Positions 8,669-40,282 of a DNA stretch of 40,393 nucleotides are shown piece after piece. The stretch lies in the IMG/VR virus record IMGVR_UViG_3300023110_001987, positions 1-40,393 of that record; one strand, 5' to 3'. The notes under the pieces are model-generated. The model saw only the letters and a list, made by a program, of their open reading frames with translations. It ran no database searches and was not told the origin of the DNA. Every line of letters begins with the position of its first letter. The first letter of the stretch is position 1. Source of the DNA: a virus. A program made the translations under genes and the position numbers.

Positions 8669-8669
8669 T

Positions 8670-12890: not shown

Positions 12891-12893
12891 ATA
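12886..12893 (+). promoter_or_regulatory. T4-type late promoter TATAAATA, 5 nt before the ATG
   Basis: This is a perfect TATAAATA followed by GTAAT and the ATG at 12899. With T4 spacing (box at -13 to -6) transcription would start at the A of the start codon, giving a leaderless message. The same arrangement recurs at 16222, 20674 and, on the minus strand, 36525. Confidence 0.65.
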
Positions 12894-12898
12894 GTAAT

Positions 12899-13186: not shown

Positions 13187-13200
13187 AAACTTTTTTCGTT

Positions 13201-14329: not shown

Positions 14330-15150
14330 AAGTAACACATTATGATATTGACTTGAAAACTGCCAGCAAAGAGAATATTTTGAAAATGGGTAGAGCAATT
14401 GCAACAGATAATGTAATAATTGTAAGAAACCAAAATTTAAATAATGAGGAAATAGTTAGAGTAGCAAGAACAATTGGAAGAACTGTTCAGCCAAAACAGT
14501 TTATGAATGATGATAGATATCCTGATCTTTGTCGTGTTACTAACGAAAGAGATAGTAATGGTGAAAAAATTGGTATTTTTGCAGACGGTGAACTTGGTTG
14601 GCATAGCAATGGTAATGCAAGAGACTCTGGTTTTGAGTCATGTGTTGCACTCTATTGTATAAAACCTGGCATTGATAGTGTTACAAGTTTTTGTGATGTA
14701 AGACAAGCATATAGAGATTTGCCTGAAACAGATAAAGAGTTATTACTTCAAATTGATGGTTCGTTTAAGTTTGTAAATAATACATTTTATCATCTAAAAG
14801 AAGGTGATAAAGAGTTGAAAATGTATACGGAACATCCAGCGTTTAAAAATGCAGTTACAAAACCACTTATCTACACTCATCCATATGACAAAGAAAAGGG
14901 ATTACATCTTACATACCATTATATTCAAAAACTTTGGCATCGTCAAACAATGAAAGATTATACATTTTTAATAGAGGAATTAAAACTTCATGTTTTTCAG
15001 AATAAGTATATTTACCATCATTCAGATTGGCGTTCAGGAGATTTTATATTTATGGACCAATGGCATAGTTTACATAAGAGAAATGAAGTAAAAGGTAAAC
15101 GATTTTTATGGAGACTTGCTTTTGACTATCACCATTGTTATATTAATTAA
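14326..15150 (+). CDS. TauD/TfdA-like oxygenase with altered iron-binding motif
   Basis: The 274-residue length and layout fit the TauD/TfdA family: an N-terminal VIIVRNQNLNNEEIV, a central iron-motif region, Thr120 (DSVTSF), then WRSGDFIFMDQWHSLHKR with the distal His250 and Arg263 in KRFLWR for 2-oxoglutarate. The first motif reads LGWHSNG, so the aspartate expected two residues after His93 is Asn95. In TauD that Asp is an iron ligand. The enzyme may still bind iron with a weaker ligand, act differently, or be inactive. It overlaps the upstream oxygenase gene by ATGA. The substrate is unknown; nothing points specifically to taurine. Confidence 0.75.
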   Translation: MKVTHYDIDLKTASKENILKMGRAIATDNVIIVRNQNLNNEEIVRVARTIGRTVQPKQFMNDDRYPDLCRVTNERDSNGEKIGIFADGELGWHSNGNARDSGFESCVALYCIKPGIDSVTSFCDVRQAYRDLPETDKELLLQIDGSFKFVNNTFYHLKEGDKELKMYTEHPAFKNAVTKPLIYTHPYDKEKGLHLTYHYIQKLWHRQTMKDYTFLIEELKLHVFQNKYIYHHSDWRSGDFIFMDQWHSLHKRNEVKGKRFLWRLAFDYHHCYIN

Positions 15151-21251: not shown

Positions 21252-21259
21252 TATAAATA
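21252..21259 (+). promoter_or_regulatory. T4-type late promoter TATAAATA
   Basis: A perfect TATAAATA lies 45 nt before the ATG at 21305. The leader carries GAGAGG at 21291-21296 as ribosome-binding site. It would drive the S74 fibre gene and probably the propeller genes. Confidence 0.65.
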
Positions 21260-24238: not shown

Positions 24239-24241
24239 CAC

Positions 24242-25492
24242 ATGGCATTTTATTCAGGATCAAAAACAAATCAAAATTTAGTCTTTGGAGATAAAGGTGA
24301 GATAGGCAATAGTTCATTTGCTTATAGTGAGGCCGCTACAGTTGCAAGTACGGAAAACAAAATCACTGCTTCCGATGGTACTAGTAGTGATCATTTTGGC
24401 TGGTCAGTTGCTGTAGGTGACGGTAGAATAGTGGTGGGGGCTGAAGACGGGAACAGCGATCAAGGCGCTGCCTATATCTATAACCTAGATGGAACCAATG
24501 AAACCAATATCACGGTTTCCGATGGGGCTACTGGTGATAAATTTGGCTATTCTGTTGCTGTAGGGTGTGGTAAAATAGTGGTGGGGGCTTACCGGGATGA
24601 CGACAATGGTTCTTCTTCAGGCTCAGCCTACATCTTTGACCTAGATGGAACCAATGAAACCAAGATCACGGCTTCCGATGGTGCTGCTAGTGATGATTTT
24701 GGCTTTTCAGTTGCTGCAGGTTCAGGTAGAATAGTGGTAGGGGCTGATGGAAAGAACAGCAATCAAGGCGCTGCCTATATCTTTGACCTTGATGGAACCC
24801 AATTAGCTAAAATAACAGCTTCAGATGGTGTTGCTGGTGATAGATTTGGCTATTCTGTTGCTGTAGGCTCTGGAAGAATAGTGGTAGGGGCTCAATGGGA
24901 TACCGATAATGGTTCTCAATCAGGTTCAGCCTACATCTTTGACTTAGATGGAAACCAATTGGCCAAGATCACTGCTTCCGATGGTGCTACTGGTGATTGG
25001 TTTGGCAATTCAGTTGCTGTAGGTGGTGGTAGAATAGTGGTAGGGGCTCCCCTAGATGACGACAATGGTAATAGATCAGGCTCAGCCTACATCTTTGACC
25101 TAGATGGAACCCAATTGGCCAAGATCACAAATTCAGATGGTGCTAGAGAAGATGATCAATTTGGTAAATCAGTTGCTGTAGGATGCGGTAGAATAGTGGT
25201 GGGTGCTAATGGAGATGGCGACAATGGTTCTTTTTCAGGCTCAGCCTACATCTTTAACCTAGATGGAACCAATGAAACCAAAATCACAGCTTCAGATGGT
25301 GCTGCTAGTGATTCCTTTGGCTATTCTGTTGCTATAGGTTCAGGCAGAATAGTGTTAGGGGCTTATGGGGATGACGACAATGGTTCTGAATCAGGCTCAG
25401 CTTATATCTACAACACCAACGAATACTATGACGATTATGTAGAAAAAATTGCCGATAATAGAATCGGCCAATACACAAGATTAACAGGATAA
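24242..25492 (+). CDS. FG-GAP beta-propeller protein 2 (seven repeats)
   Basis: The 416-residue paralogue of the preceding gene starts 3 nt after its stop with CGAGG 8 nt upstream. A different 40-residue N-terminus (MAFYSGSKTNQNLVFGD) is followed by seven blades. Blades 1 and 3 have a shorter loop (GNSDQGAAYIYNL, KNSNQGAAYIFDL) in place of DDDNG--SGSAYIF. Several units end DGTNET in place of DGTQLA, and this linker is shared with blades in the third gene, indicating exchange of blades between paralogues. The C-terminal tail is DDYVEKIADNRIGQYTRLTG. Same predicted fold and likely virion role. Confidence 0.8.
   Translation: MAFYSGSKTNQNLVFGDKGEIGNSSFAYSEAATVASTENKITASDGTSSDHFGWSVAVGDGRIVVGAEDGNSDQGAAYIYNLDGTNETNITVSDGATGDKFGYSVAVGCGKIVVGAYRDDDNGSSSGSAYIFDLDGTNETKITASDGAASDDFGFSVAAGSGRIVVGADGKNSNQGAAYIFDLDGTQLAKITASDGVAGDRFGYSVAVGSGRIVVGAQWDTDNGSQSGSAYIFDLDGNQLAKITASDGATGDWFGNSVAVGGGRIVVGAPLDDDNGNRSGSAYIFDLDGTQLAKITNSDGAREDDQFGKSVAVGCGRIVVGANGDGDNGSFSGSAYIFNLDGTNETKITASDGAASDSFGYSVAIGSGRIVLGAYGDDDNGSESGSAYIYNTNEYYDDYVEKIADNRIGQYTRLTG
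24362..25420 (+). repeat. Tandem blade repeats, seven units (propeller gene 2)
   Basis: Seven in-frame units of about 147-159 bp share the core of the first array. Length varies because two units lack the acidic loop and one has an extra residue (REDDQFG). Confidence 0.8.
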
Positions 25493-25496
25493 AACT

Positions 25497-26654
25497 ATGG
25501 CATTTAAAACAACATATTCACAATACGACAATAAAATAGGCCTATTTTCAACGGAAGGCGATTTAGATTTAACGACAATCCCTTCAAATGAAACTGTAAT
25601 ACAATCCTCAGACGCTGCATATAATGATGGATTTGGCACTTCTATTGCTGTGGGTGACGATAGAATAGTGGTTGGGTCTGAGGGAGATGACGACAATGGT
25701 TCTGAATCAGGCTCAGCCTACATCTTTGACCTTAATGGTACCCAATTAGCCAAGATCACGGCTTCCGATGGTGCTGCGGATGATCGCTTTGGCAATTCAG
25801 TTGCTGTAGGGTGTGGTAGAATAGTGGTAGGGGCTCACCAAGATGACGACAATGGTACTAATTCAGGCTCAGCCTACATCTATAACCTAGATGGAACCAA
25901 TGAAACCAAGATCACGGCTTCCGATGGGGCTGCTAATGATATATTTGGCTATTCTGTTGCTGTAGGTTGTGGTAGAATAGTGGTAGGGGCTTCTAAAGAT
26001 GACGACAATGGTAATAGATCAGGCTCGGCCTACATCTTTGACCTAGATGGTACCCAATTGGCCAAGATCACAGCTTCAGATGGGGCTGCTGATGATGAAT
26101 TTGGCCATTCTGTTGCTGTAGGTAACGGTAGAATAGTGGTAGGGGTTGGGGGAAATAGAAGCTCATACATCTTTGACCTTGATGGTAACCAACTAGCAAA
26201 AATTACACCTTCAGATGGTACTCTTAATGATCGCTTTGGCCGATCAGTTGCTGTAGGCTCAGGCAGAATAGTGGTAGGGGCTGCTCCTATTGGTTCTAGT
26301 TCAGGCTCAGCCTACATCTTTGACCTTGATGGCAGCCAACTAGCAAAAATTACACCTTCAGATGGTGCAACAAACTACTTTGGCGAGTCAGTTGCTGTAG
26401 GTAACGGTAGAATAGTGGTAGGACATTATGCAGGCACTAATCAATCTGCATATGTTTTTGATCTAGACGGTAACGAATTAGAAAAGATAATACCCACATC
26501 AACAAATGGTAGTAGTTTTAGTAAAAAAGTTTTTATAGGCGGCGGTAAAATATTAATATCACGTGATGGAGATTCTGGTAGTGGTAACGGCGCTGGATAT
26601 GTCTACATCTACGAAACGCCAAATATAAAAGACATCTTTTCAATTGTTGACTAA
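25497..26654 (+). CDS. FG-GAP beta-propeller protein 3 (seven repeats, last blades degenerate)
   Basis: This 385-residue third paralogue starts 4 nt after the second. Its N-terminus (MAFKTTYSQYDNKIGLF) shares TTIPSNE with the first gene. Seven units can be counted: the first three are standard, the fourth to sixth have shortened loops (VGVGGNRSSYIF, GAAPIGSSSGSAYIF, GHYAGTNQSAYVF), and the seventh is strongly diverged (SFSKKVFIGGGKILISRDG). Keeping the count at seven despite decay supports a closed seven-bladed propeller. It ends at a late-promoter-like ACTAAATA in front of the glycan cassette. Confidence 0.8.
   Translation: MAFKTTYSQYDNKIGLFSTEGDLDLTTIPSNETVIQSSDAAYNDGFGTSIAVGDDRIVVGSEGDDDNGSESGSAYIFDLNGTQLAKITASDGAADDRFGNSVAVGCGRIVVGAHQDDDNGTNSGSAYIYNLDGTNETKITASDGAANDIFGYSVAVGCGRIVVGASKDDDNGNRSGSAYIFDLDGTQLAKITASDGAADDEFGHSVAVGNGRIVVGVGGNRSSYIFDLDGNQLAKITPSDGTLNDRFGRSVAVGSGRIVVGAAPIGSSSGSAYIFDLDGSQLAKITPSDGATNYFGESVAVGNGRIVVGHYAGTNQSAYVFDLDGNELEKIIPTSTNGSSFSKKVFIGGGKILISRDGDSGSGNGAGYVYIYETPNIKDIFSIVD
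25599..26625 (+). repeat. Tandem blade repeats, seven units (propeller gene 3)
   Basis: Seven in-frame units run from near-identical copies of the other arrays (units 1-3) to progressively diverged ones (units 4-7). The gradient suggests that homogenisation acts mainly on the 5' part. Confidence 0.75.
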
Positions 26655-26666: not shown

Positions 26667-28199
26667 ATGATACCCAATATATTATGGCAAACTTGGAAAA
26701 CTAAAACTTTACCAAATTTACTTAAAAAACAATCAGAGTCTTGGAACTACAGTAATTCTCAACTTAAAAAAGAGTTTATGGATGATCAGCAATGTTCTGA
26801 TTTTATTTTAAAACATTTTGGCAAAGAAACTCATTTAAAATATTTACAATTACCTCAACCCATTAATCGTGCTGATTTTTGGAGATTGGCTGTTGTTTAT
26901 ATTCACGGTGGTTATTATTCAGATTTAGACATTACTTGTAAAATGAATTTAAATTATTTTACCAATCCTAAAGCTAAGGCTGTATTCATAAGAGAAATTA
27001 ATAACATAGGTAATTATTTTTTTGGTGCCGTACCTAAGCATCCTGCTATCAAAATGGCAATTGATCGTATGTTATCAGAAACAGATAATATTAATAAAAA
27101 AGAATCACAATCGTGGGGAATGCACGGCCTACATCAATCTGTACGAGATTATTATAAAGTTATAGGTACAAATTATATTTCTAATAACGAGGTTGATTTT
27201 ATATTAGATAGTAAAGTTAGGCAAAATAAATATCTTATACATACTATGGTTAGTTTAGATGATCAAAAAGATTATGAATCATGGAGAAAAAGAGAGAAGT
27301 TAATGATTAAAGAAAGACAACAATCAAAAGACATTTTATTTTTTACAACATTTAATAAAAATGGTTATGACCTTTATGGTAAATCTTGGGTAGATAGTTT
27401 TATTAAAGTTGCAAACTATTACAATAAATTTAAAGCTAAAATCTATTACGAAGGTTTTAAACCTAAACAAACACATTCAAATATACAGTGGGTAGATTTT
27501 AAACAAGAAATACCTCAACACGAGTCTTGGAAAAAAGAATACTTAGAAAAAAATAAACACGTTGATTACATAAAGACTATGTGTGTTCGTTTTAGTCATA
27601 AGGCCTTTGTTATACAAGATGTATTAGATAAACATAACAATGAATATTTGATATGGTTAGATGGTGATTGTGTTTTTAAAGATTCAAATTACACAGAATT
27701 TCCTAAAAACATACTTAAAGATAAATTTTTAGCTTGTCAATTAGAACACGCACAAGATTTAAATCACGTAGAAAGTGGAATACTTATTTTTACAGGTCAA
27801 CATCCTGACACTAAAGTGTTTAATCAACATTTTAAAGAAAATTATAAGGTGAACAATGTTATAAAAATGGGAGAACCTTACGATGGTTTTATTGTATCTA
27901 AATCGTTAGTTTCATCTAAATTAAGTTATGTTAATTTAAATGAAAGTTATGGAAAAGGTGGTATACAATCTGATCCCAATTTAACTTTTTTACACCCTCA
28001 AATTAAAGACAAGTTTGTTCATAACATAGGTTGGACAGGTAAAAATCAATATGATGGTTTTGAAATAATTAAGGGTAGAGATGATATTTTAACTAAACTT
28101 GAAAGCGTACTTTTTGGCAATAAAAAAGAAAAACAAAAAAAAAAGAAAAGACTTTTTAACAAATTAGAAAAGTTAAGAAGATTAAAATCAAACAGATAA
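26667..28199 (+). CDS. Two-domain glycosyltransferase (GT32-like plus second GT-A domain)
   Basis: The 510-residue protein has two catalytic regions. Residues 1 to about 200 match the Gly_transf_sug/OCH1 type (GT32): IPNILWQTWKTKTLP, INRADFWRLAVVYIHGGYYSDLD with Asp86-x-Asp88. Residues from about 220 to 460 form a second GT-A-like domain: ILFFTTFNKNGYDLYGKSW, KTMCVRFSHKAF, then YLIWLDGDCVF with Asp332-x-Asp334. The C-terminus is very basic (KKEKQKKKKRLF and RRLKSNR), perhaps for membrane-surface or nucleic-acid contact. Such fusions usually add two successive sugars. It is the first gene of the cassette, with its own late promoter variant. Confidence 0.8.
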   Translation: MIPNILWQTWKTKTLPNLLKKQSESWNYSNSQLKKEFMDDQQCSDFILKHFGKETHLKYLQLPQPINRADFWRLAVVYIHGGYYSDLDITCKMNLNYFTNPKAKAVFIREINNIGNYFFGAVPKHPAIKMAIDRMLSETDNINKKESQSWGMHGLHQSVRDYYKVIGTNYISNNEVDFILDSKVRQNKYLIHTMVSLDDQKDYESWRKREKLMIKERQQSKDILFFTTFNKNGYDLYGKSWVDSFIKVANYYNKFKAKIYYEGFKPKQTHSNIQWVDFKQEIPQHESWKKEYLEKNKHVDYIKTMCVRFSHKAFVIQDVLDKHNNEYLIWLDGDCVFKDSNYTEFPKNILKDKFLACQLEHAQDLNHVESGILIFTGQHPDTKVFNQHFKENYKVNNVIKMGEPYDGFIVSKSLVSSKLSYVNLNESYGKGGIQSDPNLTFLHPQIKDKFVHNIGWTGKNQYDGFEIIKGRDDILTKLESVLFGNKKEKQKKKKRLFNKLEKLRRLKSNR

Positions 28200-28227: not shown

Positions 28228-29043
28228 ATGAAAAATATATGTAACAAAATTTCTTTTGTAATAGCTACTAATGGTAAACGATATGATTTAACAAAAAAAA
28301 CGATCAAATCTATCCAAAATGCAACAAATTTTAAATGTGATATTCATATAGGGGGAAATGTTTCAAAATTTTTAATTAATAAAGACAAGAATATTTTTTT
28401 ACATAACTTTGTAGAAGAATCAAATAACGGATTTATTGGCAAATTAAGAAATAGAATAATTGAAAAATGTAATACTGAAATAGTAGTTTATTGTGATGAT
28501 GATGTTTTGATACCAAAAAATTGGTTAAATAACTTTTTAGAATACAATAATAATAATGATTGGAATTTTTTAACTAATAAAATTTTTTTACCAAATGGCG
28601 GAAGGTATTGGGACAGATCAATTATAGATGACAATATTCATACAATGGTTGATTATGATCACGATAAGTATGATAAGAGATTATATTTTTGTTCTACATT
28701 TTTTGTTACTAAGCGAAATTTTTTTAATAAATTTAAATTTGATGAAACCTTAAAATATTATGGAGGCGTAAAAGATAAAAACTTAGATTTAAAAAATTGG
28801 AAACTAGCTGAAGACCACGAGTTAAGTTATAGAATATATCAACAAGGATATTGTATAGATTTTGATTCCAATAATTATGTTTTTCATATTAATAATGAAT
28901 TTACACAAGTTATTAGAAAAATAAATTTATCAAAAAACGTATGTATTAAAAATATTTTTTTAAATGATGAAGAAACAGACTCTATTTTTGTTAAAGATAG
29001 AAGTATAATTAACATATTAAGAAATGAGTTTAAAAATTTATGA
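28228..29043 (+). CDS. Family 2-type glycosyltransferase (GT-A)
   Basis: The 271-residue enzyme opens with KISFVIATNGKRYDLTKKTIKSI, the standard nucleotide-sugar binding start of GT2 enzymes. It has EIVVYCDDDVLIPKNWL with the DDD metal site at 90-92 and LAEDHELSYRIYQQGYCI with the catalytic ED at 194-195. There is no transmembrane segment. It overlaps the following FkbM gene by ATGA. The donor and acceptor cannot be read from sequence, but a role in building a surface glycan or decorating a virion protein fits the context. Confidence 0.8.
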   Translation: MKNICNKISFVIATNGKRYDLTKKTIKSIQNATNFKCDIHIGGNVSKFLINKDKNIFLHNFVEESNNGFIGKLRNRIIEKCNTEIVVYCDDDVLIPKNWLNNFLEYNNNNDWNFLTNKIFLPNGGRYWDRSIIDDNIHTMVDYDHDKYDKRLYFCSTFFVTKRNFFNKFKFDETLKYYGGVKDKNLDLKNWKLAEDHELSYRIYQQGYCIDFDSNNYVFHINNEFTQVIRKINLSKNVCIKNIFLNDEETDSIFVKDRSIINILRNEFKNL

Positions 29044-29726
29044 AATATAAATTTATAGATATTGGATGTTCATTTTTTATGGTATCAACTGATGAATTAG
29101 GAATAAATGTTAATGGCATTTTTGTAGAACCTATTAAAGAATATTTAGATGTGTTGCCGTCCTCCGATACAATTGTAAAAGAAAATGTGGCTATAGGATC
29201 TAAAATAGATACTGTAAAATTTAATGTATTTATTCCAAAAAATACAAAAATCAGATATTATAATACAAAAGAATTAACAAGAATGATGAACAAGTATATA
29301 AAAGAAGATCCTATCCACTATATTCACAAGCATCCTATATTAGGTGCCATTCTTGGTGCAGGTGGTAGTGCTATTTACACACGAAATGATAAAACTATTG
29401 TTGACAATGAATTTATTGAACAAAAAAATATTGAAGTTGATATGATTACCTTGGATGAATTATTTAAGAGAAATAGTGTTACTGAGATTGATTATTTTAA
29501 AGTTGACGTTGAAGGTTTAGAAGAAACTATTATGTTGCAACTAATACAGTTAATGCGTAAAAATAAAGTAAAAATAAATAAACAGATTCGTTTTGAGTGT
29601 AATCAACTATCTGATCAAAAAAAATTAAAAAATATTGCTTATGATATTTGTAGTGAGTTTGATTTTAAATATGAATACGTCCATAATGTTAAATGGGATG
29701 AAGATATAATCTTAACAAAATTATAA
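29040..29726 (+). CDS. FkbM-family methyltransferase
   Basis: The 228-residue protein starts MKYKFIDIGCSFFM (SAM-binding motif I in a shortened form) and has the FkbM signature VDMITLDELF, then EIDYFKVDVEGLEE (154-161). FkbM enzymes O-methylate sugars or polyketides. It is a paralogue of the gene at 33110, sharing MKYKF-DIG, FVEPIK or LVEPIK, and VD-EGLE or ID-EGHE. It is coupled to both neighbours (ATGA upstream, TAATG downstream). Likely role: O-methylation of a sugar added by the adjacent glycosyltransferases. Confidence 0.8.
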   Translation: MKYKFIDIGCSFFMVSTDELGINVNGIFVEPIKEYLDVLPSSDTIVKENVAIGSKIDTVKFNVFIPKNTKIRYYNTKELTRMMNKYIKEDPIHYIHKHPILGAILGAGGSAIYTRNDKTIVDNEFIEQKNIEVDMITLDELFKRNSVTEIDYFKVDVEGLEETIMLQLIQLMRKNKVKINKQIRFECNQLSDQKKLKNIAYDICSEFDFKYEYVHNVKWDEDIILTKL

Positions 29727-30373
29727 TGATATCTAAAATCATAATTCAAACTTGCATTACATCAATTCCAAAATATGTACAAGATATGATTAAAGAAAGA
29801 ATGTCTGATGAATGGAAATATTATATTTTTAATGATACTCAACAACGATCATATCTTTTAGAAAATCCCTCATTAAATTATACAAATATTGTAAAAAAAT
29901 ATGATCAGTTAACTGGTGCTCATAAATCAGATTTATTTAGATATTATTATCTTTATAATAATGGTGGAATTTTTTTAGATGATGATGCTATGATTTACAA
30001 TATATCATTAGACGAATTGATAGAGGGGTGTGATTGTTTTTTTGTAAAATCTAATTATAATAAATTTCCAGAAATAATAAATGCATTTGTGGGTGTCAAT
30101 TCAAATAATATTATTATAAAAGAAGCTCTTGATGATTTATACAAAATAAATGTTAATAAATTAGCGCCAATTAAAGTTAATAAACAAAAATATCTTCGTG
30201 TCGTTCAAGCTCTATATAAGTTTACTGAAAAACATAAGAATAAATATAATATTAAATTTTTTAACGAAAAAAAAAATCACAATTTAGATAATCCTTATGT
30301 GGATTATAATGATAAAATAATTTGGAAACATTATTACCACGATAAAATTATTCCAAAAATAAAAAAAGTATAA
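29726..30373 (+). CDS. GT32-like glycosyltransferase
   Basis: The 215-residue protein has a compact Gly_transf_sug domain: IIIQTCITSIPKYVQDMI, then LTGAHKSDLFRYYYLYNNGGIFLDDD with the acidic triplet at 85-87. A basic C-terminus (KHYYHDKIIPKIKKV) follows. It is shorter than typical GT32 enzymes but keeps the core SD-FRY and GG---D-D motifs. It starts on the last base of the FkbM gene. It transfers a sugar from a nucleotide donor; specificity is unknown. Confidence 0.75.
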   Translation: MISKIIIQTCITSIPKYVQDMIKERMSDEWKYYIFNDTQQRSYLLENPSLNYTNIVKKYDQLTGAHKSDLFRYYYLYNNGGIFLDDDAMIYNISLDELIEGCDCFFVKSNYNKFPEIINAFVGVNSNNIIIKEALDDLYKINVNKLAPIKVNKQKYLRVVQALYKFTEKHKNKYNIKFFNEKKNHNLDNPYVDYNDKIIWKHYYHDKIIPKIKKV

Positions 30374-30387: not shown

Positions 30388-31026
30388 ATGCATATAACTA
30401 CTGAAAATGAAAAGAAATATTTTTCACAAAGTGGTGAAGATGGAATAATTGAATATATCTTTGACAATATTGGCACCACAAACAAAGTAGCTGTAGAAAT
30501 AGGAGTTACAGCTGGGGATGATTTTGAAGATAATACATCAAACTTATGCATTAATAAAAAATGGAAATGTTATTGGTTTGATATGATTAAAATTCAAAAT
30601 AAACCTAAAAATTGTACTTTTGCTAAAATTAAGTTAAATAAAGACAATATTATAGATGTGTTTAAAAAACTTAAAATACCAAAAGAATTTGATTTATTAT
30701 CAATAGATATCGACAGTAACGATTATCATATAAGAGAAAAACTATCAGTATATAATCCTAGAGTTGTAATTATGGAGTACAATGGTTGTTTTGATCATAA
30801 GACAGAGTATGTTATGCCCTATAATGAAAATTATATTTGGAAAGGATATGAAATGAGAGATTTTGGTGCAAGTTTATTATCTTATACTTTACAAGCTGAG
30901 AGAATGGGATATGATTTAGTTTATTGTACAGAAAATGGAGTAAATGCATTTTTTATTCGTAAAGACTTAAATGTGTTTGAAAAAAAAACAACAAAAGAAG
31001 TTTATAAAAAACTGATTTGGGCATAG
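30388..31026 (+). CDS. FkbM-like SAM-dependent methyltransferase
   Basis: The 212-residue protein contains YFSQSGEDGIIEYIF, then VAVEIGVTAGDDFEDNTSNL (SAM motif I region), WKCYWFDM, KEFDLLSIDIDSNDYHI and VVIMEYN. This SQSGEDG and LLSIDIDxNDY pattern belongs to a methyltransferase family related to FkbM that occurs in polysaccharide gene clusters. It is a different subtype from the two FkbM genes nearby. Likely role: methylation of the glycan or its precursor. Promoter-like AATAAATA precedes it. Confidence 0.7.
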   Translation: MHITTENEKKYFSQSGEDGIIEYIFDNIGTTNKVAVEIGVTAGDDFEDNTSNLCINKKWKCYWFDMIKIQNKPKNCTFAKIKLNKDNIIDVFKKLKIPKEFDLLSIDIDSNDYHIREKLSVYNPRVVIMEYNGCFDHKTEYVMPYNENYIWKGYEMRDFGASLLSYTLQAERMGYDLVYCTENGVNAFFIRKDLNVFEKKTTKEVYKKLIWA

Positions 31027-31047: not shown

Positions 31048-31953
31048 ATGAAAAAAGTATTAGTAACAGGTGGTGCAGGATTTATAGGATCAAACTTAGT
31101 AGATAAGTTAATTCATAATAATCATCAAGTCACTGTAATAGATAATGAGAGTTCAGAATCAGCAGAACAATTTTATTATAATGATGATGCTGAAAATTTA
31201 AATTTAGACGTAACGAATTTTGAACAAATCAAACCATATTTTAAAGATGTAGATGTAGTATTTCATCTAGCTGCTGAAGCTAGAATACAACCATCTATTA
31301 TTAATCCATTAAAATCAATATATGCAAATGTTATGGGCACTTGTTCTGTTTTACAGGCCGCAAGAGAAATGGGTGTTAAACGAGTTGTTTATTCTTCAAC
31401 CTCTTCAGGATATGGATTAAATTCAATACCAAATATAGAAGATCAACCAGATGATTTATTAAATCCATATGCTGTAGGAAAAGTTACTGGTGAAAAACTT
31501 TGTAAGATGTATAGTGATTTATTTGGATTAGAAACAATTGTGTTTAGATATTTTAATATTTACGGTAATAGACAACCTATGAAAGGGCAATATAGTACCG
31601 TTGTGGGTATATTTGAAAGACAAATGAGAAATAATGAACCTCTTACGATCGTAGGTGATGGAGAACAAACTAGAGATTTTACAAACGTAGAAGACGCTGT
31701 TCAAGCAAACATATTGGCTGCAACGAAAGAAATTGACAAAAAATATTTTGGCACAGTATTTAATATTGGTAGAGGACAAAATTATTCTATTAACGAATTA
31801 GCAAAAATGTATAATCATACTACTACATACATACCGCCTAGAAAAGGTGAAGCAAGAGCAACACTTGCAAATATAGATAAGGCAAAAACTATATTAGGTT
31901 ATAATCCGCAAGTTAATATTGAGGATTGGTTAGAAGAAAGACTAAAAAAATGA
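31048..31953 (+). CDS. NAD-dependent sugar-nucleotide epimerase/dehydratase
   Basis: The 301-residue extended SDR enzyme has GGAGFIG at 8-14 for NAD(H), VTVIDNES, DVVFHLAAEARIQPS, the catalytic Ser region VVYSSTSSGYG at 113-123 and Tyr141-x-x-x-Lys145 (NPYAVGKVTGE). FRYFNIYGNRQ and GDGEQTRDFTNVEDAV are typical of UDP-glucose and UDP-GlcNAc 4-epimerases (GalE/WbpP type). It supplies an activated sugar for the adjacent glycosyltransferases. A dehydratase activity cannot be excluded. It overlaps the SqdB gene by ATGA, suggesting that the two act on related UDP-sugars. Confidence 0.85.
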   Translation: MKKVLVTGGAGFIGSNLVDKLIHNNHQVTVIDNESSESAEQFYYNDDAENLNLDVTNFEQIKPYFKDVDVVFHLAAEARIQPSIINPLKSIYANVMGTCSVLQAAREMGVKRVVYSSTSSGYGLNSIPNIEDQPDDLLNPYAVGKVTGEKLCKMYSDLFGLETIVFRYFNIYGNRQPMKGQYSTVVGIFERQMRNNEPLTIVGDGEQTRDFTNVEDAVQANILAATKEIDKKYFGTVFNIGRGQNYSINELAKMYNHTTTYIPPRKGEARATLANIDKAKTILGYNPQVNIEDWLEERLKK

Positions 31954-33110
31954 AGAATATATTAATCGCTGGCGGTGATGGTTTTTGTGGATGGCCTACT
32001 GTTTTAGAAACACTATCCAGAGGACATAAAGTAGTAATAGGAGAAAATTTAACCAGAAGAAGAATTGATGCAGAATTAAGGTCAACTTCTATAACTCCTA
32101 TTGAAACTATAGAAAATAGAATAAAAATAGCTAAAGAAGTTTTTAATAATTCTGAACTATATTTCGAATACTTAGATTTTTCAAAAGACTATGATGATAT
32201 TGTTAGAATTATAAAAGACTATGACATAGATACTATTGTACATTTTGCTGAAATTAAATCAGCACCATACTCAATGATGTCAGCTGCAAGAGGAAGACAT
32301 ACGGTAGACAACAATATCAATGGAACTACTAATATCCTAACTGCTATTGTACATACTAATCCTAATATTCATTTAGTACATCTAGGTACTATGGGAGTAT
32401 ATGGTTATAAAGATGACTATGGGAAAATACCAGAAGGATATTTAGATATTCAAGTCAAGTCAACAGGTGCAGATACACAAATCCTTTGGCCAACTGATCC
32501 AGGGTCTATCTACCACGTGACTAAATCTTTAGATCAAATATTATTTCAATTCTATAATAAAAATTGGGGAATAAAAGTAACTGATCTTCATCAAGGAATA
32601 GTTTGGGGCACACAAACTAGAAATACAACAAAACACGATTCTCTTGTAAATAGATTTGATTACGATGCTATTTGGGGTACAGTGCTTAATAGATTTATTG
32701 TAGAAGCCGCTATTAATTATCCTTTAACTGTTCATGGAACAGGCGGACAAACTAGAGCATTTATTCATATCCAAGACAGTGCAGATTGCATTAGACGAAG
32801 TGTTGAGAATCCACCAGAAAGTAATCGAGTAAGAATATTTAATCAAGTAGCAGAAACAAAAACAGTTATTGATCTAGCAAAAATGATATCTGAAAAAACT
32901 GGCGTAGATATAAACTATCAACAAAATCCACGTAAAGAAAGAGCTGAAAATAGTCTTGAGGTTGAAAATCATGGTTTAAAAAGTTTGGGTTTTCATCCTA
33001 CGTTATTAGAGGATTCATTGGTTAATGACGTATTATTTATTGCAGAACAATTCAAAAATAATATTAATGCGAATGTTATTGATGCTACTCCGTATAAATG
33101 GGTTAAGTAA
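31950..33110 (+). CDS. sqdB: UDP-sulfoquinovose synthase
   Basis: The start is set at 31950 (386 residues), in an ATGA overlap with the epimerase. The sequence follows plant SQD1 and bacterial SqdB closely: ILIAGGDGFCGWPTVLETL, NLTRRRIDAEL, SITPIETIENRI, VHFAEIKSAPYSMM, LGTMGVYG, SIYHVTKS, TDLHQGIVWGTQT, DYDAIWGTVLNRF, LTVHGTGGQTRAFI. The catalytic Thr147, Tyr188 and Lys192 correspond to Thr145, Tyr182 and Lys186 of SQD1. The enzyme makes UDP-sulfoquinovose from UDP-glucose and sulfite. No SqdX/SQD2-type lipid transferase is recognisable nearby, so the sugar may be used by the surrounding glycosyltransferases. Confidence 0.92.
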   Translation: MKNILIAGGDGFCGWPTVLETLSRGHKVVIGENLTRRRIDAELRSTSITPIETIENRIKIAKEVFNNSELYFEYLDFSKDYDDIVRIIKDYDIDTIVHFAEIKSAPYSMMSAARGRHTVDNNINGTTNILTAIVHTNPNIHLVHLGTMGVYGYKDDYGKIPEGYLDIQVKSTGADTQILWPTDPGSIYHVTKSLDQILFQFYNKNWGIKVTDLHQGIVWGTQTRNTTKHDSLVNRFDYDAIWGTVLNRFIVEAAINYPLTVHGTGGQTRAFIHIQDSADCIRRSVENPPESNRVRIFNQVAETKTVIDLAKMISEKTGVDINYQQNPRKERAENSLEVENHGLKSLGFHPTLLEDSLVNDVLFIAEQFKNNINANVIDATPYKWVK

Positions 33111-33784
33111 TGAAATATAAATTTGTAGATATTGGCACTTGTTTTTATGCTACTAGTATTGACGATTTTGGATTACACGTTGACGGTATATTAGTAGAGC
33201 CAATTAAAAAATTCTTAGACACTATTCCTAATTCACCTACTATTAAAAAGGAATGCTCGGCTATATCTGATAACAACGGACTTGGATTAATATATACATA
33301 TTTTAGTCCTGAGCAATTAGCACAGACTAAGTTAGAATACTTCACAGAAGAACAACGTAGACAAATGATAAAAGACAAAACATTTGCTTCTTTTCTAGCC
33401 GATATGTTACCTTCGGCAGGAATCTCATCTTTAAAAACAAGAGATAAATGGATCAATCCAGAATTTCAAATAAATCCGCCGCCTTGCTATGAATATCCTA
33501 TTAATTATATTACGTTAACTTCATTGATTGAAAAGTATAATATCAGTGAAATAGAATATTTGAGAATCGACTGCGAAGGACACGAACCAAAGATTTTAAA
33601 ACAAGTTTATGAACAATTAAAATCAAATAATTTAGCAGTTAGAGAAATTCAATTCGAAAGAGATAAAAAAGATACTTTTAGTATTAACAGTGATTTAAAT
33701 CTAATCACATCAGACATTATATCCTTAGGATATAGCAAATCAATAAGTAAAAAAGATAGTGATGTTATCTTAACAATGATTTAA
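33110..33784 (+). CDS. FkbM-family methyltransferase
   Basis: The 224-residue protein is a diverged paralogue of the gene at 29040. It starts MKYKFVDIGTCFYATSIDDFG, has ILVEPIKKFLDTIPNSPTI, and carries the FkbM core NYITLTSLIEKY and IEYLRIDCEGHEPKIL (150-163). It overlaps the sqdB stop by one base (TAATG), linking it to sugar-nucleotide synthesis. Likely reaction: SAM-dependent O-methylation of a sugar hydroxyl. The acceptor is unknown. Confidence 0.8.
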   Translation: MKYKFVDIGTCFYATSIDDFGLHVDGILVEPIKKFLDTIPNSPTIKKECSAISDNNGLGLIYTYFSPEQLAQTKLEYFTEEQRRQMIKDKTFASFLADMLPSAGISSLKTRDKWINPEFQINPPPCYEYPINYITLTSLIEKYNISEIEYLRIDCEGHEPKILKQVYEQLKSNNLAVREIQFERDKKDTFSINSDLNLITSDIISLGYSKSISKKDSDVILTMI

Positions 33785-33789
33785 AAATA

Positions 33790-34503
33790 ATGATCAACAG
33801 AAAAATATATTGTTTTTGGTTTGGTCCAAAAATGTCGTTTGATAGAAGAAAATGCTTTAAATCTATTGTTAAAAATTCTGGCGTTGATGTTGAATTAATA
33901 ACTGAGGAAAATATAAGCAATTATATTGTTAAGTCTGATTTACTTTACAAAGGATTTAAATTATTAAGTTCAACTCATAAATCAGCATATCTAAGACCAT
34001 ATTTTATGAAACATCACGGTGGATGTTACATGGACATAAAATATTTAAGAGAAGATTTTAATCAATATTTTGATCTATTAGAAAATTCAAACAAAGATTT
34101 TATAGGATATCAAGAGCATTCAAGCCAGTATGGTGTTTGGACAAAAGACTGGTCACTAAAAGAAAAAGAAAGACTTGCAGGTGCTTGTAGATATATTTTT
34201 AAACCTAACACAAAATTTGCAAACTTATGGTATGATAAAATTATTGGATATTTAAACAGCATCTATCCACAATTAATTGATAATCCAGGAACATATCACC
34301 AAAGAGCCATACCTGGTGGATTTGGTGGTGGTGGAGGAGAAAAGAAAGTTATAGACTATGATAAGTATGGCCATTATCCTATATCGTGGTCTAGAATTTT
34401 TGGAAGATATTTACAAGAAACAATGTATGAAAATCCTAAATTATATATGTTTGGCCTTCCATATACGTTTAGAATTGATCCAGATTGGGTTCCTTATAGA
34501 TGA
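33790..34503 (+). CDS. GT32/capsule-synthesis-like glycosyltransferase with an atypical acidic motif
   Basis: The 237-residue protein contains KIYCFWFGPKMSFDRRKCF, STHKSAYLRPYFMKHHGGCYMDIKYL and a glycine-rich GGFGGGGGEKK. The context HKSAYLRPYFM-HHGG-YMD matches GT32 and capsular polysaccharide synthesis transferases, but the second Asp of the usual DxD is Lys84 (Asp82-Ile-Lys84). That resembles the capsule family, where the second acid is not conserved. It is coupled to the next gene by ATGA. Sugar specificity is unknown. Confidence 0.7.
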   Translation: MINRKIYCFWFGPKMSFDRRKCFKSIVKNSGVDVELITEENISNYIVKSDLLYKGFKLLSSTHKSAYLRPYFMKHHGGCYMDIKYLREDFNQYFDLLENSNKDFIGYQEHSSQYGVWTKDWSLKEKERLAGACRYIFKPNTKFANLWYDKIIGYLNSIYPQLIDNPGTYHQRAIPGGFGGGGGEKKVIDYDKYGHYPISWSRIFGRYLQETMYENPKLYMFGLPYTFRIDPDWVPYR

Positions 34504-35189
34504 GTAATAGAACTACTAAAACATTATATACCTGTGCTTGGGGTGGTTATTGGGAAAAGTATGGTAAAGATTGGATTAAACAGGTTGAATTACTTAATAC
34601 AAAACCTGATCAAATATTCGTAGTTTCAGATAAATCCCTTTCAGACTGTCCTTATGAAGTAATATTAGCAGATCCAAATTTTAAACCTTATCCAATAACT
34701 GCGTTTAGACAGGCTGCTGTAGATCATTGTAATTGTGATTGGTATTGTTTCTCTGACATAGATGATATTATGTTTCCTAACTATTTAGATAATATTAATG
34801 ATAACTACGATATTCACGCTATAAGTTTTAAAAGAACCGATGGACGCGATTGGATACTATGTGATATAGATAAAAGAAATTGGAATGAGATGTTTACATA
34901 CGAAGGTTCATATCGAGGGCCTTTTTCAGGCACTTCGTTTATAAAGTCGAAAATTATTAAAAAAGTAGGAATTCCATTATATGGTTGGCAAGACAATACC
35001 TTGTTTATAAAATTAAGGGAAATAAATTGTTCGGTTTTTTTTGATTCAACACCTAGATTTCTTTATAACATAGATATTAAAAATAGTTTATCAAAAATAC
35101 ATACAAGAAAAAATAAAAAAAGGGAGCACGACGCAATATTGAAACAAGTAAAGGAAAAATATAATGAAGCTTTACATTTTAAATCTTAA
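34500..35189 (+). CDS. GT-A glycosyltransferase
   Basis: The 229-residue enzyme reads TKTLYTCAWGGYWEKYGKDW, then QIFVVSDKSL, AFRQAAVDHCNCDWYCFSDIDDIMFPN with acidic cluster Asp86-Ile-Asp88-Asp89, and SYRGPFSGTSFIKSKI. This arrangement, an AxRNxxxxxxxxDW-type helix before a DxDD site, is typical of GT2-like enzymes. The C-terminal 30 residues are basic and helical. It begins in the previous stop (ATGA) and overlaps the next start by 26 nt. Donor and acceptor are unknown. Confidence 0.75.
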   Translation: MSNRTTKTLYTCAWGGYWEKYGKDWIKQVELLNTKPDQIFVVSDKSLSDCPYEVILADPNFKPYPITAFRQAAVDHCNCDWYCFSDIDDIMFPNYLDNINDNYDIHAISFKRTDGRDWILCDIDKRNWNEMFTYEGSYRGPFSGTSFIKSKIIKKVGIPLYGWQDNTLFIKLREINCSVFFDSTPRFLYNIDIKNSLSKIHTRKNKKREHDAILKQVKEKYNEALHFKS

Positions 35190-35910
35190 AAAAGACATAG
35201 AAAGAAAAAAACACGTCATTTCATTATTAAACAAATATAACATAATCAATTACAAATTTTGTGAAGCTGTTTATGGTAAAGAATTGCAAAATGTAGATAG
35301 GTTTTATGATTATAATTGTACTAATAGTAATCTTTACAATGATAAAAAATTAAATTTAGGCGCTCTTGGCTGTGCATTATCTCATATTAATATGTACAAA
35401 GACATATTAAAAGAAAAGAAACGAGTTCTCATATTAGAAGATGATATTACTTTTGATGAAACGTTACTACAACAATTAAAAGATATACCAGAAAAAATAA
35501 ATAATAATTCACGTAATGTTATATTTTATAATGCTACTGGAGTACAAAAAACTAAAATGAAAGGTAATTATGATAATTATGAAATTTTTGAGTATATTCA
35601 ACCTCATAAAAGTTATTGTACCTCTGTATTAGTTTTTGATGGTGTAGAATATAATGGATTAAAAAGAATTGCTAAAGAATATGTCAAAAATGAAGATATT
35701 TACGGTACTTTTGCTTATTCTCCAAGTAAAGCATTTTGCAAAAAGGCAATAGAAATTCAAACACCTGTAAAATACAGAGCAGATTATATTTGGAATCTTG
35801 TATCTAATACAGATATATATTTTAATATTCATCAACCAATAAAAATTCATGAGGAATTAGGATTATTATCAAATATTGATAACTATTGGTTAAAAGAAAG
35901 ATTAAGATAA
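35164..35910 (+). CDS. GT25-family LPS-type glycosyltransferase
   Basis: The 248-residue protein has the hallmarks of Glyco_transf_25: LYILNLKKDIERKKHV at the N-terminus, LGALGCALSHINMYKDIL at 65-82, and RVLILEDDITFD with EDD at 92-94. Later KAFCKKAIE and KYRADYIWNL fit the family. GT25 enzymes often add galactose to lipopolysaccharide core or to protein-linked glycans, which points to surface glycan as acceptor. AAAGGAA precedes the ATG. The end overlaps the convergent sulfotransferase gene by 9 nt. Confidence 0.85.
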   Translation: MKLYILNLKKDIERKKHVISLLNKYNIINYKFCEAVYGKELQNVDRFYDYNCTNSNLYNDKKLNLGALGCALSHINMYKDILKEKKRVLILEDDITFDETLLQQLKDIPEKINNNSRNVIFYNATGVQKTKMKGNYDNYEIFEYIQPHKSYCTSVLVFDGVEYNGLKRIAKEYVKNEDIYGTFAYSPSKAFCKKAIEIQTPVKYRADYIWNLVSNTDIYFNIHQPIKIHEELGLLSNIDNYWLKERLR

Positions 35911-36542: not shown

Positions 36543-37295
36543 ATGAAAAAATGTATAAATTTTATAGCATACAATCGTCCAAATTATTTTTCAGAAGTAT
36601 TAAACTCATGGAAAAATGTAGATAAAATAAATGAGTATGATTTATATTTCTTCTTAGATTATTCTGATAAAACACAGGAAATTAAAAATCTTATAAGAAA
36701 ATTTATTAAAGAGAAAGTTAATCCTTCAAAACAAAAAGTACAAATTAAAATTAGTAATCCAAAACAAGGTGTGAATGCTGCTATGTATAATGCATTAAGT
36801 TATTCTTTTGACAACTTAAAATATGATTTTGTTGTTATGGCTGAAGATGATATTGTAGTTGCAAAAGATAGTTTAAAATTATTAGAGTATATGCATAATA
36901 AAACAAAAAATATTTCATCAGTTATTTTTTATAATTTATTTAGTAGGTCTTTTTCAAATGATGATGTACAACTTAGTACAAAGTTATTCAAAAATAATCT
37001 TTTTGTTCCTTGGGGATGGGGAACTACAAAAATCAATTGGAATAATTTTATAAAATCATTTTGGGATCATACATATCAAAACGGGTGGGATCATAACTTA
37101 TCTATTAAAATGAAAAAAGATAAAAAAATGTTCTCAATAACTCCTTGTATTAGTCGTAGCAAAAATATCGGTATTTTTGGTGTTAATTATAAGTCTAATC
37201 ATTATTGCGATCATCGGCATCAGGATATAAAAATAAATGAAAATTATAATTATGGTTGTGATGATTTGATTATTGCCTTTGATTATATTAACTGA
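36543..37295 (+). CDS. GT-A glycosyltransferase (GT2/GT13-like)
   Basis: The 250-residue protein contains KCINFIAYNRPNYFSEVLNSW, then QGVNAAMYNALSYSF, FVVMAEDDIVVAKDSL with EDD at 101-103, and FVPWGWGTTKINWNNFIKSFWD. The combination of EDD after a strand and the PWGWGT tryptophan motif resembles enzymes related to N-acetylglucosaminyltransferase I. The N-terminus (RP----EVL-SW) is that of a GT2-type fold. It starts 23 nt from the divergent sulfotransferase start. It is the last gene of the cassette before the neck genes. Confidence 0.75.
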   Translation: MKKCINFIAYNRPNYFSEVLNSWKNVDKINEYDLYFFLDYSDKTQEIKNLIRKFIKEKVNPSKQKVQIKISNPKQGVNAAMYNALSYSFDNLKYDFVVMAEDDIVVAKDSLKLLEYMHNKTKNISSVIFYNLFSRSFSNDDVQLSTKLFKNNLFVPWGWGTTKINWNNFIKSFWDHTYQNGWDHNLSIKMKKDKKMFSITPCISRSKNIGIFGVNYKSNHYCDHRHQDIKINENYNYGCDDLIIAFDYIN

Positions 37296-37379: not shown

Positions 37380-38195
37380 ATGGCAAATCCATCAACAAGA
37401 GAAGAATTAAAACAGTATGCCCTAAGAACACTAGGGAAACCTGTAATTGAAATCAATGTAGATGATGATCAATTAGAAGATAGATTAGATGAAGCATTAC
37501 AATATTTTGCACAATATCACTATGATGGTGTTGAAAGAACATATCTAAAATATCAAGTTACTCAAGCAGACGTAGATAGAATTAAATCTCCTGATGGAGA
37601 TACATCTTCAAGTATAACTAAAAATTCTGTAACTACTACATGGACTGAACAAAATAATTTCATAGTGGTACCAGAAGCTGTATTAGCAGTTACAAGAATA
37701 TTTCCTCTATCAAATAGAGGCAATCAAAATATGTTTGATATACGATATCAAATGAGATTAAACGATCTGTATGATTTTTCATCAACATCAATTATTCATT
37801 ATGAAATGGTGATGAAACATTTAGATTTTTTAGATCACATATTAGTAGGTGAGAAACCTATAAGATTTAATCAATACAATAATAGATTGTATGTGGATAT
37901 GGATTGGAAAACTGATATATCTGTTGGAGAGTATCTTGTAATTGAATGTTTTAGAAAACTAGACCCTACAGTTATGACAGATGTTTATAATGACATATAC
38001 TTAAAAAGATATGTCACAGCCTTATTTAAAAGACAATGGGGTGCAAACCTATCAAAATTTAATGGTGTGACTATGATTGGTGGAGTATCACTAAATGGTC
38101 AACAATTATTTTCAGAAGCACAAGAAGATATAAGAAAATTAGAAGAAGAAATAAGAGGCACATACGAAACGCCTGTAACATACATGATAGGATAA
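37380..38195 (+). CDS. 13: T4 gp13-like neck protein
   Basis: The 271-residue protein starts MANPSTREELKQYALRTLGKPVIEINVDDDQLEDRLDEAL and contains VERTYLKYQVTQ, VVPEAVLAVTRIF and GEYLVIECFRKLDP. This is the conserved gp13 of marine T4-like phages (T4 gp13 is 309 residues). It joins the portal to the tail as part of the neck ring on which the head is completed. It is followed by gp14, gp15, gp16 and gp17 in the canonical order, which makes the assignment strong. It marks the right border of the accessory region. Confidence 0.88.
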   Translation: MANPSTREELKQYALRTLGKPVIEINVDDDQLEDRLDEALQYFAQYHYDGVERTYLKYQVTQADVDRIKSPDGDTSSSITKNSVTTTWTEQNNFIVVPEAVLAVTRIFPLSNRGNQNMFDIRYQMRLNDLYDFSSTSIIHYEMVMKHLDFLDHILVGEKPIRFNQYNNRLYVDMDWKTDISVGEYLVIECFRKLDPTVMTDVYNDIYLKRYVTALFKRQWGANLSKFNGVTMIGGVSLNGQQLFSEAQEDIRKLEEEIRGTYETPVTYMIG

Positions 38196-38199
38196 TGCC

Positions 38200-39003
38200 A
38201 TGCCAGTTAATCATTACTTTCAAGGTGGCAATGGGATCGGAAGTGATTCAGAAAAAAGATTACACGAAGATTTAATTATAGAAGGCCTAAAGATATATGG
38301 CCAAGATGTATTTTACTTACCACGAACATTAGTTAATCAGGATTTAATTTTAGGTGAAGATGTACTTTCTAAGTTTGATGACTCATATTTAGTTGAAATG
38401 TATATTGAAACTACTGAAGGATTCCAAGGTGAACAAGAATTAATTTCTAAATTTGGTTTAGAAATAAGAGATGACACAACATTTGTTATTGCAAAACGAA
38501 GATGGCAAAATCAAGTAGATAATACAGCAACATTAATTAAAGACGGTAGACCTAACGAAGGTGATTTAATATACGTACCTTTATTTAATTCTTTTTTTGA
38601 AATACAATTTGTTGAAGATCAGGAACCATTCTTTCAATTAGGTAATTTACCAGTTTATAAATTACGTGCTACTAAATTTGAGTACAGTTCGGAAAAAATT
38701 CAAGGTACTATACCTCAACTTAATGAAGCTGAAACTAATCTATCTATTGATCTATTACAAAATCAGTTACAATTAGAGGATGGTAGTGCAATGTTATTAG
38801 AATCAACAGATACAACATTAGGTAATATTGATCATCTAATATTAGAAAACGATACATTTAATTTGGCTGCTCAGACAAGAGATTATGCCGATAATGATAC
38901 ATATGAATCAGATGCTGGTTTTGGTACTGTTTCAACAGATGATGATATACTAGACTTTACAGAAAGAAATCCTTTTGGTGAAGTAGATGAGGAAAGTTTA
39001 TAA
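38200..39003 (+). CDS. 14: T4 gp14-like neck protein
   Basis: The 267-residue protein (T4 gp14 is 256) has MPVNHYFQGGNGIGSDSEKRLHEDLIIEGLKIYGQDVFYLPR at the N-terminus, then LGEDVLSKFDDSYLVEMYIET and GDLIYVPLFNSFFEI, typical of gp14. It forms the second neck ring below gp13 and receives the tail. It starts 4 nt after gp13 and ends in TAATG with gp15, so the neck genes are coupled. The C-terminal acidic stretch (DNDTYESDAGFGTVSTDDD) is long and low-complexity. Confidence 0.88.
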   Translation: MPVNHYFQGGNGIGSDSEKRLHEDLIIEGLKIYGQDVFYLPRTLVNQDLILGEDVLSKFDDSYLVEMYIETTEGFQGEQELISKFGLEIRDDTTFVIAKRRWQNQVDNTATLIKDGRPNEGDLIYVPLFNSFFEIQFVEDQEPFFQLGNLPVYKLRATKFEYSSEKIQGTIPQLNEAETNLSIDLLQNQLQLEDGSAMLLESTDTTLGNIDHLILENDTFNLAAQTRDYADNDTYESDAGFGTVSTDDDILDFTERNPFGEVDEESL

Positions 39004-39803
39004 TGTTTGGAAGAAGATTTTACCACGAGTCATTAAGAAAAGTTGTTGTTGCATTTGGTACAATATTTAACAATATAATTATTCATAGAACAAACAGTGA
39101 TGGTGATGTTGTACAAAAAATAAAAGTACCTTTATCATACTCTCCAAAAGAAAAGTTTTTAGTAAGATTAGAGCAACAACCAGACTTAACGCAAAAAGAA
39201 TTTTCAATAACTTTACCTCGTATGGGTTTTGAAATATCAGGAATATCTTATGATGCAGGTCGTAAACTACAAAGAGTTGGTAAATTTAAAAATGTTAATA
39301 CTTCAGATGCAAGTAAAATGTATTACCAATATAACCCTGTTCCATACAATATAAGTTTTAATTTATATTCATTTACAGCAACTGCTGAAGGTGGACTACA
39401 AATTATAGAACAAATTTTACCTTATTTTCAGCCAGATTATACAGTTACAATTAATGCAATACCTGAAATGGGAATTAAAAGAGATGTACCTATAACTTTA
39501 AATAGTGTAAACTATGAAGATAGTTACGATGGTTCGTTTACAACTAGACGAGCAGTTAATTATACTTTAGGGTTTACTGCTAAAACATACTTATATGGTC
39601 CAATATATTCTGGCAAAGTTATTAAAGAAACACAATCTGATTTATATTCTGATACAGATACAACTAGTAAAAGAGAAGAAAGAATAGTTGTCGTTCCTAA
39701 TCCAACAAGTGCTGATGCAAATGATGATTTTGGGTTTACTACAACTATAAGTACCTTTACTGACTCTAAAAACTATAATCCAACAAGTGATGATGATGAA
39801 TAA
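39003..39803 (+). CDS. 15: T4 gp15-like tail terminator (proximal sheath stabiliser)
   Basis: The 266-residue protein (T4 gp15 is 272) starts MFGRRFYHESLRKVVVAFGTIFNNI, with KVPLSYSPKEKFLVRLEQQPD, ITLPRMGFEISGISYDAGRKLQRV, PVPYNISFNLYSFT and VNYTLGFTAKTYLYGP. gp15 caps the finished tail tube and sheath and binds the head neck. It overlaps the gp14 stop by one base. The assignment is supported by both sequence and order. Confidence 0.9.
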   Translation: MFGRRFYHESLRKVVVAFGTIFNNIIIHRTNSDGDVVQKIKVPLSYSPKEKFLVRLEQQPDLTQKEFSITLPRMGFEISGISYDAGRKLQRVGKFKNVNTSDASKMYYQYNPVPYNISFNLYSFTATAEGGLQIIEQILPYFQPDYTVTINAIPEMGIKRDVPITLNSVNYEDSYDGSFTTRRAVNYTLGFTAKTYLYGPIYSGKVIKETQSDLYSDTDTTSKREERIVVVPNPTSADANDDFGFTTTISTFTDSKNYNPTSDDDE

Positions 39804-39805
39804 TT

Positions 39806-40282
39806 ATGAGTATAGACGACAAAATAAATGAAGCTCTTGGTATCTCTACTGAACAAAAGCCTGTTACTAAAGCTGTAGTTAAAAAAGAATACACTCCTCC
39901 TGTTCCTAGAATGGAAGATAAAGAAAAAGAGGATGTAGATAATGATTACAAATACAGTAGAGAAAATTATTACAATCTTATAGAACGAGGCCAAGACGCA
40001 ATTCAAGGTATACTTGATATTGCAAACGAAAGTCAACATCCTCGTGCTTATGAAGTTGCAGGTAATCTTATTAAACAAGTTGCTGATACAGTTGATAAAC
40101 TACAAGACTTACAAGGCAAACTTAAAACATTAAAAGACGTTCCTAACAAAACAAATAATACAAACATTAAACAGGCCTTGTTTGTAGGTTCATCAGCAGA
40201 ATTACATAAAATGCTAAAGAACAAAAACACACAAGTTCAAAGTGAAGAAGATAAAGATTTTAAAAAGGTAAATGATGAGTGA
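39806..40282 (+). CDS. 16: Terminase small subunit, T4 gp16-like
   Basis: The 158-residue protein (T4 gp16 is 164) starts MSIDDKINEALGISTEQKP. A variable Lys/Pro/Glu-rich segment follows, then the conserved helical core SRENYYNLIERGQDAIQGILDIANESQHPRAYEVAGNLIKQVADTVDKLQDLQGKLK, typical of gp16 of T4-like phages. It forms the ring that recognises DNA and regulates the packaging motor gp17. It lies 2 nt after gp15, and its end overlaps the gp17 start. Confidence 0.9.
   Translation: MSIDDKINEALGISTEQKPVTKAVVKKEYTPPVPRMEDKEKEDVDNDYKYSRENYYNLIERGQDAIQGILDIANESQHPRAYEVAGNLIKQVADTVDKLQDLQGKLKTLKDVPNKTNNTNIKQALFVGSSAELHKMLKNKNTQVQSEEDKDFKKVNDE

Follow-up and report, generated by a model that had tools for sequence, protein, structure and literature searches.

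The stretch of DNA analyzed here, hereafter the window, is 40,393 bases long and spans the entire viral record IMGVR_UViG_3300023110_001987. It is hence a fragment of a viral genome: the nearest isolates, which are pelagimyophages, have genomes of ~140 kb, of which the window would make up about one third. At positions 37380-40282 on the plus strand lie genes of T4 type for neck proteins, the sheath stabilizer and the small terminase subunit (phrog_211, phrog_460, phrog_227 and phrog_445; 66-73% to Pelagibacter phage Mosig). The structural proteins of the window are closest to those of Mosig (73% for the neck protein, and 66%), and the next-best matches of the neck protein are to Methylophilales phage Melnitz and Pelagibacter phage HTVC008M. 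By this order of sequence matches, the host is likely to be SAR11, a bacterium abundant in the ocean, or of OM43 type. The T4-type genes form the downstream border of a glycan cassette. Upstream of it, on the same strand, are tail-fiber-type genes (Mtd_N/S74 at 21305) and FG-GAP repeat proteins. Three of the latter, integrin-alpha-like propellers by family, stand in tandem at 23018-26654 between the tail-fiber genes and the cassette, and are possible candidates for glycan acceptors or receptor-binding proteins. T4 late-promoter-like TATAAATA motifs are present at 21252, 36505 and 37347 on the plus strand, 25-45 nt before the ORF starts at 21305, 36543 and 37380. All six matches to this motif in the window were on the plus strand, their total count being below chance, and a promoter scan of the cassette gave no more matches than shuffled sequence. 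Farther away, positions 12441-15150 encode a fatty acid desaturase (PF00487), a TauD dioxygenase (PF02668) and two Asp/Arg-hydroxylase-type proteins, families with annotated counterparts in the variable island of Mosig. On the minus strand, at 6892-9758, three consecutive radical-SAM genes lie beside transferase-like genes; MoaA-type genes are found in the Mosig island.

Within the cassette, an ORF with an ATG at 31950 and a stop at 33108-33110, on the plus strand like all of the cassette genes given below, encodes a complete 386 aa NAD-dependent sugar enzyme of the SqdB/SQD1 family. Its start is overlapped (ATGA) by the stop of a gene for a 301 aa SDR nucleotide-sugar epimerase/dehydratase (31048-31953; PF01370, E = 4.1e-58; phrog_540, nucleotide-sugar epimerase; 48-58% to cyanophage epimerases), and its stop overlaps (TAATG) the start of a gene for an FkbM-type methyltransferase (33110-33784; PF05050, E = 5.4e-6). 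An earlier note on this DNA had proposed that sqdB is coupled to an epimerase and an FkbM methyltransferase, and the two overlaps bear this out. A second FkbM-type gene is located at 29040-29726 (PF05050, E = 6.7e-10; TIGR01444 above cut-off). The epimerase-sqdB pair thus lies between two FkbM paralogues with 35% mutual identity, an arrangement suggestive of a duplication inside the cassette. The FkbM protein adjoining sqdB had no match among isolate phages.

The earlier note had also placed the gene among glycosyltransferases, and the neighbors are indeed of this kind. Upstream, we found two glycosyltransferases with a DXD sugar-binding region (26667-28199, PF04488, E = 2.3e-9; 29726-30373, PF04488, E = 2.5e-9) and one of the GT2 type (28228-29043; PF00535, E = 1.3e-6), as well as a gene whose product appeared methyltransferase-like by eye from its sequence and had no Pfam or PHROGs match (30388-31026). 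Downstream lie a capsule-synthesis-type glycosyltransferase (Caps_synth, 33790-34503; PF05704, E = 8.3e-9), a phage glycosyltransferase (34500-35189; phrog_9549, E = 6.6e-7), a GT25-type enzyme (35164-35910; PF01755, E = 2.6e-26) and a GNT-I-like enzyme (36543-37295; PF03071, E = 2.3e-6). The glycosyltransferase-like ORFs gave no GT8 or GT4 match, and no GT4 gene was found in the window at all. This agrees with the earlier statement that no SqdX is seen. Since the window is a 40 kb fragment, only about a third of a genome, the absence of SqdX from it is weak evidence; larger records of related viruses, described below, make it stronger, short of proof. No sulfite-producing gene was found in the window.

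The assignment of the 31950-33110 product to the SQD1/SqdB/Agl3 family was confirmed in several ways. In phmmer searches of PDB sequences, it matched Arabidopsis SQD1 (1qrr) over residues 1-377 with an E-value of 2.7e-85, the next family being GalE at 2.4e-13. An AlphaFold model (pLDDT 89, pTM 0.91) superposed on SQD1 with a TM-score of 0.93 and an rmsd of 1.5, other PDB folds reaching about 0.7. The protein is therefore recognizable as SqdB along its full length, as the earlier note had maintained, and the catalytic Thr147, Tyr188 and Lys192 named there were confirmed. The signature motifs GTMG and SIYHVTK ([ST]MG...YxxxK) and the nucleotide loop GGDGFCGW (pattern GGDG(F/Y)CGW) are all present; [ST]MG...Yx3K is the signature listed in a review for UDP-sulfoquinovose synthases (PMC8987622). 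The full-length match to the UDP-sulfoquinovose synthase model NF041015 (E = 3e-102, 342 bits) falls below the 575-bit cut-off of that model. However, only 1 of 14 control genomes reached this cut-off, so that its value is probably specific to a single lineage, and we set the score aside as evidence against SqdB identity. The family was not encountered in an annotated phage collection of 50,697 records, where only generic epimerases at 24% were found, and no comparable structure was present among the predicted viral proteins of BFVD (best TM-score 0.69, generic dehydratases).

We gathered related loci from viral contigs (71) and bacterial genomes (80). In the resulting tree, the window SqdB grouped with 30 further viral sequences, together with one Amylibacter and one uncultured rhodobacterial sequence, in a single clade (99% SH-aLRT). 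This clade is nested in a group (97%) with Rhodobacterales sequences from sqdB-GT8 loci; a viral SqdB clade close to the alphaproteobacterial SqdB of sqdB-sqdD operons is new here. The terminal branch of the window protein is long (0.83), which makes its exact position less certain. The label 'virus' changes about 5-7 times on the tree, making it probable that viruses acquired sqdB-type genes several times. Among 289 sampled alphaproteobacterial genomes, 27 carry an SqdB-type gene. The Amylibacter kogurei sqdB within the viral clade (L072, 5995-12979) adjoins two sulfotransferases of the Stf0 type along with a large GT4/GT2 protein and an epimerase-like gene; this may be a sulfo-glycan locus of the bacterium itself, or the gene may derive from a virus. 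A different subtype, that of SQD1 and Agl3 (MGEYG), was observed once among the viral matches, beside a class-III aminotransferase gene on a 53 kb viral contig (L059, 5776-8345).

We then compared the active site with that of Agl3. His98, Met148, Tyr151, Ser186, Tyr188, Thr191 and Lys192 are all kept in the window protein. Two differences that the earlier note had missed lie beside the active site: Lys103 replaces the arginine found at position 101 of Agl3 (R103K), and the adjacent residue is also changed (Q102I). The arginine is kept in all 138 other full-length sequences, lysine occurring only in the window and in a second contig (L001) with an identical SqdB sequence. Scanning the viral contigs with HFAEIK-x-APYSM for further Lys103 relatives retrieved only this identical contig. 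Since it carries the same Ile-Lys pair, an assembly error of a single contig is unlikely; judged from these sequences, the change is confined to one strain. In all, the window protein deviates at 7 of the 105 columns that are at least 98.5% conserved within the GTMGVYG set, Q102I and R103K among them, which is the most of any member; the next highest count is 4, and most members have none. Alanine is the sole published substitution of the corresponding arginine, and the Agl3 R101A mutant is inactive (PMC4388408).

A further difference missed by the note, Val150 in place of Glu147 of Agl3, turned out to be of another kind. Among 140 full-length sequences, this position is valine in 136 and tyrosine in 2, glutamate being present only in SQD1 and in the MGEYG-subtype viral contig. 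Nearly all viral and bacterial relatives thus have GTMGVYG where SQD1 and Agl3 have GTMGEYG. All cellular SqdB relatives that we fetched have the valine, members of sqdB-GT8 operons included, and consequently Glu147 does not define the family. For this reason we rejected the idea that Val150 marks a paralogue with a product other than sulfoquinovose; moreover, such proteins are the sole full-length SqdB in 12 genomes, and the Rhodobacterales copies lie beside a GT8 sqdD-type gene.

The effect of Lys103 may be to leave activity intact, to slow catalysis or to alter the product. An enzyme with Lys103 and Ile102 could be inefficient for sulfoquinovose and release UDP-glucose-5,6-ene, or accept a different nucleophile or sugar nucleotide, thereby supplying some other sugar of a glycan. 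This would fit the inactivity of Agl3 R101A, the confinement of the lysine form to the window strain and the unusual number of altered conserved columns, as well as the fact that SQD1 and Agl3 yield the 5,6-ene without sulfite (PMC4388408, PMC8987622). Nevertheless, lysine preserves the charge and every other catalytic position tested is retained, and we regard such a changed chemistry as unlikely. The excess of conserved-site changes and the terminal branch of 0.83 could also be read as marks of a decaying or passenger gene, with no selected function in the window strain. We find this very improbable: the 386-codon frame is intact and overlapped on both sides, the model has a confident SQD1 fold, the signature is kept and a second contig has the identical sequence.

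The neighborhood of sqdB was then compared between viral and cellular relatives. In the 29 other viral loci of the clade, transferase-type clusters were near sqdB in all but one, FkbM genes in 14, and core genes of T4 type (phoH and an exonuclease, for example) in 21. The same glycan-type setting is thus directly seen across the viral clade. Directly 3' of sqdB, 17 of these loci have a member of cluster c1, the commonest neighbor, and 9 have FkbM. Cluster c1 is without a Pfam match, and sequence features would make it transferase-like. An SqdD-type query gave no match in any of the 20 viral records searched; as a positive control, it was run on 12 bacterial genomes and matched in 7. Genes of the SqdX class (GT4) were present in 7 of the 20 viral records but, within the nine T4-like records of the clade, in only one. 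The cellular loci have another arrangement. In the Rhodobacterales relatives, the GTMGVYG protein is the sole full-length SqdB of the genome and its gene adjoins a GT8 sqdD-type gene and an SDR gene (the sqdBDC layout); in eleven other cellular loci, the flanking region contains an SqdX-class GT4 gene, in several cases directly beside sqdB. Deletion of sqdB in Rhodobacter sphaeroides abolishes SQDG (PMC11346425). By operon layout and relatives, the GTMGVYG subtype is tied to this sqdB and, on such comparisons, belongs to the same enzyme class. On one viral contig (L071, 5342-6261), a PAPS reductase gene (PF01507), following a methyltransferase gene, has a stop that overlaps the sqdB start (ATGA). 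The PAPS reductase family can supply sulfite, although its members also have other uses; this gene is a plausible source of sulfite for the sqdB product. As a general companion of sqdB, PAPS reductase was rejected, since it was found in this one of the 20 viral records.

These neighborhoods bear on whether the phage gene might serve sulfolipid synthesis. Phage-made UDP-sulfoquinovose could be turned into SQDG in infected cells, for example sparing membrane phosphate, by a lipid transferase of the host or one of the phage lying outside the window, which is only a genome fragment. The SqdB of close bacteria does adjoin lipid-transferase-type genes (GT8 or GT4), and a lipid glycosyltransferase of SAR11 has several UDP-sugars as substrates (PMC8231724), so that a host enzyme of this kind might also use UDP-sulfoquinovose. 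However, GT4 is absent from the window and from 8 of the 9 T4-like relatives, SqdD is absent from the 20 viral records, and the neighbors throughout the clade are glycan-type transferases and FkbM genes. We therefore consider a sulfolipid role quite unlikely. The glycan-type neighbors, both in the window and across the clade, make a glycan role the better supported of the two, as far as genomic context can tell.

We favor, with somewhat better than even confidence, the explanation that this is a phage copy of a bacterial SqdB, taken from an alphaproteobacterial lineage and serving the glycan cassette. The captured enzyme would bind NAD and UDP-glucose and oxidize C4; the C6 hydroxyl would then be eliminated to give the 5,6-ene, to which sulfite would be added to yield UDP-sulfoquinovose, a chemistry established for SQD1 and Agl3 and presumed for the window enzyme. 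One or more of the phage glycosyltransferases would transfer the sulfonated sugar to a glycan of the virion, perhaps on the tail fibers, which are encoded upstream in the same orientation, or to a surface glycan of the infected cell; the FkbM enzymes could possibly O-methylate it. Sulfite use by the window copy, the acceptor and the biological purpose are what we infer here. The earlier note had read the locus as making a sulfonated sugar for a virion or surface glycan and not sulfolipid. The family and the glycan context on which that reading was built hold, and extend to about 30 viral relatives. Its catalytic argument is less secure. The Thr, Tyr, Lys triad is common to many sugar SDRs and, with lysine in place of arginine, production of sulfoquinovose by the window copy is not assured. 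Counting against the favored explanation are Lys103, the changes at 7 of 105 conserved columns, the lack of a sulfite-producing gene in the window and the lack of a Pfam match for c1. Members of the viral family are likely to synthesize UDP-sulfoquinovose, whereas for the window copy such synthesis is only probable. More tentatively, a widespread marine T4-like phage group may decorate its virions or the host surface with sulfoquinovose glycans, possibly methylated, by means of a captured SqdB, Lys103 perhaps adding a second chemistry.

If the favored explanation is true, ocean viruses related to SAR11 phages make a sulfonated sugar that may be displayed on their particles or on cell surfaces, and phages would thereby have a coat sugar of strongly anionic character. 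Relatives of sqdB are carried by dozens of other marine viruses, suggesting that some phages build sulfonated glycans. Viral glycans would then be linked to the marine cycling of sulfoquinovose, a subject at present treated chiefly with respect to lipids, and an sqdB in a viral metagenome could not automatically be read as a sulfolipid gene. In the open-access literature, we found sulfoquinovose described from lipids and archaeal N-glycans and none from viral glycans; in a roseophage paper (PMC11806900) the word occurs only in the reference list.

Several known systems resemble parts of this locus. Pelagibacter phage Mosig EXVC030M, the closest isolate by neck protein (73%), carries a variable island in the corresponding position, between its neck and fiber genes, but bilin/heme and 2OG-oxygenase genes stand beside its neck gene. 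A putative UDP-sulfoquinovose synthase borne by a virus and treated under glycosylation was described earlier from the Cariaco Basin (PMC7785012); that virus is Mu-like and from euxinic water, and we saw no analysis of clade, motif or neighborhood there. SQD1 of Arabidopsis, the sole close relative of solved structure by sequence as well as fold, shares the fold (TM-score 0.93) and the signature, whereas its identity is only about 38% and it is a chloroplast sulfolipid enzyme of the MGEYG subtype. The SqdB of R. sphaeroides-type sqdB-sqdD-sqdC operons is closer in subtype (GTMGVYG), in identity (51-54% to Rhodobacterales members) and in tree neighborhood; its neighbors, however, are GT8 (SqdD-type) and SDR genes for sulfolipid, while the phage gene lies amid glycan transferases and FkbM genes and encodes Lys103. 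Finally, Agl3 of Sulfolobus acidocaldarius has Glu147 and Arg101 where the phage protein has valine and lysine, yet it is a member of the same family that makes sulfoquinovose for a protein glycan and not for a lipid (PMC4388408).
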